DNA of 64,000 bases from Glycomyces harbinensis (GTDB lineage Bacteria > Actinomycetota > Actinomycetes > Mycobacteriales > Micromonosporaceae): positions 186,001-250,000 of the forward strand of contig NZ_FNAD01000005.1 of NCBI RefSeq assembly GCF_900101745.1. The letters are read 5' to 3'. This document shows, one piece after another, positions 16,416 to 19,062 of the stretch. Below the pieces are notes generated by a model, which had not been told where the DNA came from, did not search any database, and worked only from the letters and a program-made list of their open reading frames with translations. A program made the position numbers and the translations under genes. Positions within the stretch are counted from its first letter, which is position 1. Every line of letters starts with the position of its first letter.

Positions 16416-16563
16416 GGATTCCTCCTCGGTGCGTCGGATGGGTCCGCCGGCGCTCGAGGCGCCGCCGGTCCGATCGGACCCTACTCGGGGGCTTTCGGCG
16501 CCCGCTTCGGGTTCTCACACTCTGGCCGCTCTCGCCGCACCGCGCCGCGGCGGCCGTACCATC

Positions 16564-16750
16564 GCGGGTGACGCTGGTTCCGCGGCAGTGCGCCTGCCGC
16601 GGCCAAGAGGGAATCTGGTGTGAATCCAGGACTGCCCCGCAGCGGTGAGAGGGAACGAACCCCGCCATGAGCACTGGGCCCGCGGGTCTGGGAAGCGGCG
16701 GGAAGTAGGTGCCGGCGACGGCGCGCCCTCGAGTCCGAATACCTGCCCGC
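16564..16750 (+). ncRNA. Cobalamin (B12) riboswitch controlling metE
   Basis: The conserved core is seen in order: GGCAGTGCGCCTGCC stem, AAGAGGGAATCTGGTGTGAA with TCCAGGACTGCCCCGCA, then AGCGGTGAGAGGG, GCACTGGG, and CTGGGAAGCGGCGGGAAGTAGG. This matches the adenosylcobalamin riboswitch (B12 box and L5-L13 kissing elements). A putative -10 TACCAT at 16557-16562 places the transcript start at about 16568. A 9-bp hairpin (16754-16773) follows, and the metE ribosome-binding site is at 16791. B12 would shut off this B12-independent enzyme, so the genome probably also has MetH. Confidence 0.93.
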
Positions 16751-16806
16751 GTCCCGCGCGCGACCGCGCGCGGCCCCGTTGTCGCACGTTCGAGGGAAAC
16801 TGACAC

Positions 16807-19062
16807 ATGAACACGACCACTGCCGTGCCCGCAGGGCGCCTCACGTCCACCGCGCTGGGGTATCCGCGCATCGGGCCGAACCGGGAGTTGAAGCGGGCCT
16901 TGGAGGCCCACTGGTCCGGGCGGCTCGACGCCGACGGGCTGGAGGCCGCCGCGGCCGCCGTCCGGGCGGGGATGCTCGACGACCTCTCGGTGCTCGACAC
17001 CGTTCCGACCGGCACTTTCTCGCTCTACGACCATGTGCTCGACGCGGCGTTCGCCGTGGACGCGGTCGCGCCTCGTCACCGTCGCGAGACCGCGCTGGCT
17101 TCGTATTTCGCCGCCGCCCGCGGTGACGACGCGGCCGCGCCGCTGGAGATGACCAAGTGGTTCGACACGAACTATCACTACCTCGTCCCCGAGATCGGGC
17201 CCGACACCGAGTTCAAGGCCAATCCCGACAAGGCGGTCGCCGAGTTCCTCGAGGCCCGCGAACGCGGCCTCGACGCCCGGCCCGTGCTCCTCGGCCCGGT
17301 CTCCTTCCTCCTGCTGGCCAAGCCCGCGGCAAACGCCCCCGCCGACTTCCGTCCGCTCGACCGGATCGTCGATCTCGCGGTGGTCTACGTCGAGATCATC
17401 AACGCGCTCGGCCGCGCCGGTGCCGGACTCGTGCAGCTCGATGAACCCGCGCTGTGCGCCGACCGCACCCGGGAGGAGCTCGCGGCGACCGCCGAGGCCT
17501 ACCTGCGGTTCAACGAGGACGTCGAGATCGTGGTCGGCGGCGGCTACGGCCCCCTCGGCGTCGCCCTCGAGGTGCTGCGGTCGGCAGGCGTCGAGGGCTT
17601 CGCGCTCGACCTGGTCCGGGGCCGCAGTGACATCGAGACGCTCGAGGAGTTGCAGTCGCCGCATGTTTCACGTGAAACATATTTGCTCGCGGGGGTCGTC
17701 GACGGCCGCAACATCTGGCGCACCGACCTCGCCCGGGCGGCCGCGGACATCGAACGGCTGCAGCGCATCAGCGACCGCGTCGCGGTCAGCTCCTCGTCCT
17801 CGCTCCTGCACGTCCCGGTGGACCTCGCCGTCGAGCACGACCTTCCCGAAGGCCTGGCCGAGCGCCTGGCCTTCGCCCGGCAGAAGCTCGAGGAGATCGT
17901 CGCCCTCGCCGACCCGGACGGGCCGCGCGACGCCCGCCCGGAGAGCCCGGAGGCCTGGCGTGACGCGGCCGTCCGCGAACGCCTCGCCGCCCTCGACCCC
18001 GGCGCCGACCGGCGCGTCCCCTACGCCGACCGCGCCGCCGCCCAGGCCGCGCGCGTCCCGCTCCCGGCGATCCCGACGACCACGATCGGCTCGTTCCCGC
18101 AGACCGCCGAGCTGCGCAAGGCCCGCGCGGCCCACCGCCAGGGCCTGATGATCGACGCCGACTACCGCGCCCGGATGCGGGCCGAGGTCGCCGCCGTCAT
18201 CGCCGAACAGGAGCACCTCGGCCTCGACGTGCTCGTGCACGGCGAACCCGAGCGCAACGACATGGTCCAGTACTTCGCCGAGCAGCTCACCGGCTTCGCG
18301 ACCACCGCCGCCGGCTGGGTCCAGTCCTACGGTTCGCGCTGCGTCCGCCCCCCGGTCCTCTACGGCGACGTCGCCCGGACCGCCCCCATGACCGTGGAGT
18401 GGACGGCGTACGCCCAGTCGCTCACCGAGAAGCCCGTCAAGGGGATGCTGACCGGACCCGTCACGATCCTGGCCTGGTCGTTCGTGCGCGACGACCAGCC
18501 GCTCGCCGACACCGCCGACCAGGTCGCCCTCGCCCTGCGCGACGAGGTCCGCGACCTCGAAGCGGCCGGAACGGCGATCATCCAGGTCGACGAGCCCGCC
18601 CTGCGCGAGCTGCTGCCCGTGCGCGCGGCCGCCCGAGCGGCCTACCGCGACTGGGCGACCCGCTCGTTCCGCCTCGCCACCTCCGGCGTCCGCCCGGAGA
18701 CCGCGATCCACACGCACCTGTGCTACTCGGAGTTCGGCGAGGTCATCGACGCGATCAGTGCCCTCGACGCCGACGTCACCTCGATCGAGGCGTCCCGTTC
18801 GAAGATGGAGGTCCTCACCGACCTCGACCGCGCCCGGTACCGCAGCGCCGTCGGCCCGGGCGTGTGGGACATCCACTCCCCGCGCGTCCCCGCCGCCGAC
18901 GAGATGGCCGCGGCCCTGCGCCTGGCCGTCGCCGCGCTCGGACCCGGCCGCGTCTGGGCCAACCCCGACTGCGGCCTGAAGACCCGCCGCTACGAGGAGG
19001 TCCGCCCCTCGCTCGCGGGCCTCGTCGAAGCCGCACGGGCGGTCCGCGCCGAGGTCGCCTAG
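16807..19062 (+). CDS. metE: Cobalamin-independent methionine synthase MetE
   Basis: 751 aa. It transfers a methyl group from 5-methyltetrahydropteroyl-triglutamate to homocysteine in the cytoplasm. N-terminal half: LGYPRIGPNRELKRALEAHW. C-terminal catalytic barrel: IPTTTIGSFPQT, VHGEPERNDMVQYF, and the zinc ligands in IHTHLCYSEF (His, Cys), SIEASRSKMEVL (Glu) and ANPDCGLKTR (Cys). It is preceded by a B12 riboswitch. Codons 17664-17679 form an exact parS sequence, encoding part of HVSRETY in the linker between the domains. It is followed by alr after 149 bp. Confidence 0.97.
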   Translation: MNTTTAVPAGRLTSTALGYPRIGPNRELKRALEAHWSGRLDADGLEAAAAAVRAGMLDDLSVLDTVPTGTFSLYDHVLDAAFAVDAVAPRHRRETALASYFAAARGDDAAAPLEMTKWFDTNYHYLVPEIGPDTEFKANPDKAVAEFLEARERGLDARPVLLGPVSFLLLAKPAANAPADFRPLDRIVDLAVVYVEIINALGRAGAGLVQLDEPALCADRTREELAATAEAYLRFNEDVEIVVGGGYGPLGVALEVLRSAGVEGFALDLVRGRSDIETLEELQSPHVSRETYLLAGVVDGRNIWRTDLARAAADIERLQRISDRVAVSSSSSLLHVPVDLAVEHDLPEGLAERLAFARQKLEEIVALADPDGPRDARPESPEAWRDAAVRERLAALDPGADRRVPYADRAAAQAARVPLPAIPTTTIGSFPQTAELRKARAAHRQGLMIDADYRARMRAEVAAVIAEQEHLGLDVLVHGEPERNDMVQYFAEQLTGFATTAAGWVQSYGSRCVRPPVLYGDVARTAPMTVEWTAYAQSLTEKPVKGMLTGPVTILAWSFVRDDQPLADTADQVALALRDEVRDLEAAGTAIIQVDEPALRELLPVRAAARAAYRDWATRSFRLATSGVRPETAIHTHLCYSEFGEVIDAISALDADVTSIEASRSKMEVLTDLDRARYRSAVGPGVWDIHSPRVPAADEMAAALRLAVAALGPGRVWANPDCGLKTRRYEEVRPSLAGLVEAARAVRAEVA
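17664..17679. promoter_or_regulatory. parS: Perfect parS (ParB-binding) site inside metE
   Basis: TGTTTCACGTGAAACA is an exact 16-bp match to the universal bacterial parS palindrome. It lies in the metE coding sequence, in AT-richer DNA than its surroundings. Confidence 0.9.

Follow-up and report, generated by a model that had tools for sequence, protein, structure and literature searches.

The parS site in metE

This locus raises the question of why a perfect copy of the chromosomal ParB-binding site, parS, lies within the coding sequence of a methionine synthase gene, and whether it is the DNA or the protein that is being maintained there. The features concerned lie within the window, which here denotes the whole 64-kb stretch of DNA that was analysed:

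16558..16764, + strand: cobalamin riboswitch upstream of metE (RF00174, 94.7 bits)
16807..19062, + strand: metE, the gene that contains the parS site, encoding a cobalamin-independent methionine synthase of 751 aa (NCBIfam NF003556, 981.7 bits; PDB relatives 1u1h etc.)
17664..17679, palindromic, without strand: parS, TGTTTCACGTGAAACA, exact; core unchanged in all 22 congeneric species

The original prediction of a perfect 16-bp parS inside metE was accurate to the base, as positions 17664-17679 match the consensus exactly. It was also right that the site is alone, as TGTTTCACGTGAAACA remains the sole match in the window even when three mismatches are allowed. No match appeared in 100 shuffled windows, and at the window GC content of 72.1% only 4e-7 exact copies of the 16-mer are expected by chance per 64 kb, or 4e-5 across the whole genome versus the seven observed; a chance origin of the metE site was rejected on these figures. 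The flanking DNA is less GC-rich, as had been described, if only mildly (60-70% over 20-50 bp), but metE itself is 73.3% GC rather than about 71%. The palindrome lies 857 bp past the metE start codon and extends from the third base of codon 286 to the end of codon 291, touching six codons instead of the seven first proposed. These codons are CAT, GTT, TCA, CGT, GAA and ACA, encoding H followed by VSRET, and the site begins at the final T of CAT.

The description of metE as riboswitch-controlled was likewise correct, and a cobalamin riboswitch also precedes metE in all 20 related loci scanned. This is ordinary B12 control of a B12-independent enzyme, with no evidence tying the riboswitch to parS. 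The closest named relative found was G. algeriensis (MetE 83% identical), and the metE of its strain DSM 44727 also contains the parS.

Conservation and distribution of the metE site

All 22 Glycomyces genomes searched contain a single metE, and in every one parS occupies the same codon register. The site is perfect in 19 species and has one outermost base changed in three, where C stands in place of the outermost T; the other 15 bases, GTTTCACGTGAAACA, are invariant. Loss of the palindrome in close relatives had been named as an observation that would count against the site; since all 22 species retain it, this comparison does not do so. Nineteen of the 22 genomes have seven parS sites in total, the exceptions being G007 (two), G020 (six, in a fragmented assembly) and G021 (eight). 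In G007, ParB was not found and the only parS besides that in metE is on a different contig; the assembly is 92% complete and most likely lacks the parAB region. The gene order parB-dnaA-metE holds in all 15 genomes that have the three genes on one contig, with the metE parS 18.6-89.3 kb (median 29.7 kb) from dnaA.

Across the family (355 genomes), a search pattern combining the exact 12-bp parS core with GTNGAYGGNCGNAAY downstream (the VDGRN codons), which could miss a few cases elsewhere, was matched by 21 genomes, all of them Glycomyces. The 22nd Glycomyces genome (G017) escaped this pattern because VID replaces VVD. None of the 333 other family genomes matched, and among 399 genomes sampled from the order the pattern was found nowhere outside Glycomyces. 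This confinement indicates that the metE parS arose in the lineage leading to Glycomyces.

Selection at the DNA level

In a codon alignment of metE from the 22 species, pairwise MetE identity is 74-93% and mean GC3 is 93%. There are 367 columns with an invariant amino acid that could be encoded by more than one codon, of which 70 also have an invariant codon. Among the 367, an invariant codon with A or T in third position occurs at only five, namely the parS codons GTT, TCA, CGT, GAA and ACA. As shared ancestry inflates counts over 22 species, third-base changes were counted on a tree built without the parS site, which gave none at the five parS codons versus a mean of 3.58 at the 362 other columns. 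Zero-change columns for the same amino acids are scarce elsewhere in the gene (V, 1 of 25; S, 0 of 12; R, 2 of 43; E, 4 of 23; T, 0 of 21). Five-codon windows average 19.3 third-base changes against zero for the parS window, and the only other zero-change windows, whose codons are GC-ending, share positions with the invariant IQVDEP motif. The bias extends to the base preceding GTT, which is T in 19 of 22 species, although at other positions the codons that supply it (AAT, GAT and CAT) encode their amino acids in only 5-8% of cases. Conservation in relatives is thus independent of coding and exceeds what the codons demand, the comparison that the original prediction had called for, and selection acts on the DNA site itself.

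The origin region and its ParB

The 6.17-Mb Glycomyces genome contains exactly seven parS sites at up to two mismatches, all of them perfect, and a reversed-pattern control search returned no matches. Six sites identical to the metE parS lie within 5 kb (C17:162767-167760) around the genes rsmG, parA and parB, 5-10 kb to one side of dnaA: one inside rsmG, one between rsmG and parA, two inside parB and two beyond parB. dnaA lies at 172 kb, ending at C17:173179, and is followed by what we take to be dnaN, recF, gyrB and gyrA, the order being read from the open reading frames and the names from recognition of their sequences. The metE site (C17:203664) stands alone on the opposite, dnaN-gyrB side, 30.5 kb or about 0.5% of the genome from dnaA. 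The suggested genome-wide count and mapping therefore places the locus close to the origin, as predicted. SMC is also encoded in the genome.

The two sites inside parB (C17:165399 and 165432) are 33 bp apart, start to start. All 20 of the Glycomyces parB loci that were checked have such a pair, with a spacing of 33-57 bp and, in some, one outer-base change.

To assess specificity, the DNA-binding domain of the host ParB was aligned with those of Spo0J and Corynebacterium glutamicum ParB, and its residues were numbered manually on the basis of the aligned motif, with residue roles taken from PMC7383237. The host protein keeps R173 and G201, which are described as absolutely conserved among ParB orthologs (Jalal et al., PMC7383237). 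It also keeps the parS contacts Q162, G170, S172, N178 and R204, with K171 replaced by R, and has M179 and G184 in place of the Noc lysines. The protein is of the parS type (R173, G201) rather than the Noc type (Q, K, K, R), and because these specificity residues are retained, the host ParB should read parS.

A model for the metE site

ParB loads at parS as CTP-bound clamps, slides outward and recruits ParA and SMC. By analogy, the host ParB would bind the metE site and load there as CTP-dependent sliding clamps, forming a small ParB-covered region some 30 kb from oriC. This region would belong to the origin partition complex as an outlier and would aid segregation by ParA and, probably, the loading of SMC. 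The extent of ParB spreading is 2.5-3 kb in Streptomyces venezuelae (PMC12511625), and in C. glutamicum it reaches as far as 16 kb to each side of one parS (PMC7083940). With such ranges the metE site would give a separate zone that takes in metE and adjacent genes, lies about 36 kb away from the main one and is divided from it by oriC. We consider it highly probable, from the sequence comparisons, that the metE palindrome is a true parS of the chromosome and serves this complex as an outlier at which ParB, and probably SMC, is loaded. Such strong conservation implies that the site contributes to fitness, most simply via segregation or SMC loading. A single parS can be redundant, as one site suffices in C. 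glutamicum (PMC7083940), so any selective advantage of having a site on this side of oriC is presumed.

Alternative explanations

The invariance of VSRET in 22 species could be taken to mean that MetE needs this peptide and that the palindrome is a by-product. However, the MetE proteins of other genera and families have unrelated residues at the aligned position, with VSRET absent, solved MetE structures have gaps or other residues there, and a protein constraint cannot account for invariant rare A/T-ending codons in genes with 93% GC3. A protein-level need for VSRET was therefore rejected and we give it almost no credence; since the codons are invariant and A/T-ending and the residues of other MetE proteins are unrelated, it is the DNA site that constrains the protein and not the reverse. 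The restriction of the site to one genus would fit a relic that arose once in the metE of the genus ancestor and has had too little time to decay, but MetE identity falls to 74%, synonymous codons differ at an average of 32% of identical residues, and the site has no third-base changes where an average five-codon window has 19.3. Recent common ancestry was rejected as the cause of conservation on these tree counts, and a relic is very improbable. A palindrome could also self-pair in RNA, and the sequence might be an mRNA hairpin, or the operator of another regulator, that matches parS by accident. This is just as hard to credit, as the sequence is identical rather than covarying across the 22 species and is the same as the six parAB-side sites of its own genome.

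A less remote, though still improbable, explanation is that ParB bound to or spread over metE modulates its transcription, as a roadblock or by silencing beside the B12 riboswitch, and that this keeps the site in place. The site appears to stay with the gene, since it lies within metE in all 22 species although the distance between dnaA and metE varies from 18.6 to 89 kb, but ordinary insertions suffice to explain that variation. Spreading over 2.5-3 kb, as in S. venezuelae (PMC12511625), would cover metE and its riboswitch, and excess ParB represses promoters near parS3 and parS4 in Pseudomonas aeruginosa, according to the accessible part of PMC5521831. Conversely, the metE parS lies 857 bp into the gene and away from the promoter, a review confines ParB-dependent regulation to a few genes that are not necessarily near parS (PMC7022226), and the lone sites of other genera described below are in unrelated genes or intergenic. 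The originally suggested effect of ParB spreading on metE transcription is therefore geometrically possible, but no finding supports or needs it.

Comparison with other parS systems

The implied oddity of an intragenic parS did not hold up, as such sites are known both in trpCF of C. glutamicum and in essential genes of Caulobacter. Like the metE site, C. glutamicum parS1 is a full 16-bp parS in an actinobacterial amino-acid biosynthesis gene and is the site furthest from oriC; parS1 is bound by ParB (PMC7083940), while binding at metE is predicted. All ten C. glutamicum sites form one 35-kb cluster, whereas the Glycomyces metE site is alone across oriC from its cluster, and in the comparison with parS1 it is for the metE site that genus-wide conservation at the DNA level is demonstrated. 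In Caulobacter crescentus, parS sites also lie inside essential or fitness-relevant (costly) genes near the origin, in a cluster about 8 kb from it on one arm, and the accessible part of that report describes no lone site across oriC (PMC5815017). S. venezuelae resembles Glycomyces in having an actinobacterial ParB, many origin-proximal sites and 2.5-3 kb spreading, but has 16-17 sites versus seven (PMC12511625). P. aeruginosa also has some parS away from its four-site origin cluster but belongs to a different phylum, and a single site of that cluster is necessary and sufficient, according to the accessible part of PMC4368675. Our literature search found nothing on parS in metE or on parS in Glycomyces. 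What is new here is a parS in metE of Glycomyces with unusually clear evidence of selection at the DNA level.

Lone gyrB-side sites in related genera

A survey of related genomes, which was an unplanned sample, found a lone parS or near-parS on the gyrB side of dnaA in seven of the eight other family genomes with any parS, about 11-120 kb away and opposite the main cluster. The sites, each a lone parS with one mismatch on the gyrB side, are at:

G034 C1:24054
G033 C1:1228989
G022 C1:63683
G024 C1:4371758
G373 C1:102033
G372 C40:21357
G025 C1:2993522

The mismatch to the 16-mer falls in an outer base or internally, and most of the sites are intergenic. One is inside a high-GC3 open reading frame, presumably methyltransferase-like, that adjoins a presumed nuoD, and in G022, G024 and G032 the lone site is near genes that we take to be sufE- or ybaK-like; all of these names come from reading the sequences rather than from a family search. 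A common host gene across genera was rejected, as the positions are non-orthologous save for the sufE/ybaK-like position in three genomes. In G343, a single-contig genome of the same family, dnaA is present but no parS was found anywhere at up to one mismatch, which would mean that its centromere sequence has diverged or that the system has been lost. The metE frame of G343 holds one in-frame TAG.

Given the unplanned sample and the gene names read from sequences, the recurrence of gyrB-side sites is offered as a lead. One tentative reading, which we regard as possible but not the likelier outcome, is that the family maintains, on the gyrB side and tens of kilobases away from the cluster beside parAB, a solitary parS that is a functional element in its own right, is housed differently in different genera and might serve as a second SMC loading point or an origin marker on the other side. 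This raises the question of whether a solitary parS across oriC does something that the main cluster does not.

In MetE, the site occupies a variable loop that tolerates the peptide VSRET, so that selection for parS has fixed both this peptide of five residues and its five rare codons in the enzyme across the genus. The metE locus of Glycomyces thus offers a clean natural case in which a DNA-binding site dictates the sequence of a metabolic enzyme.
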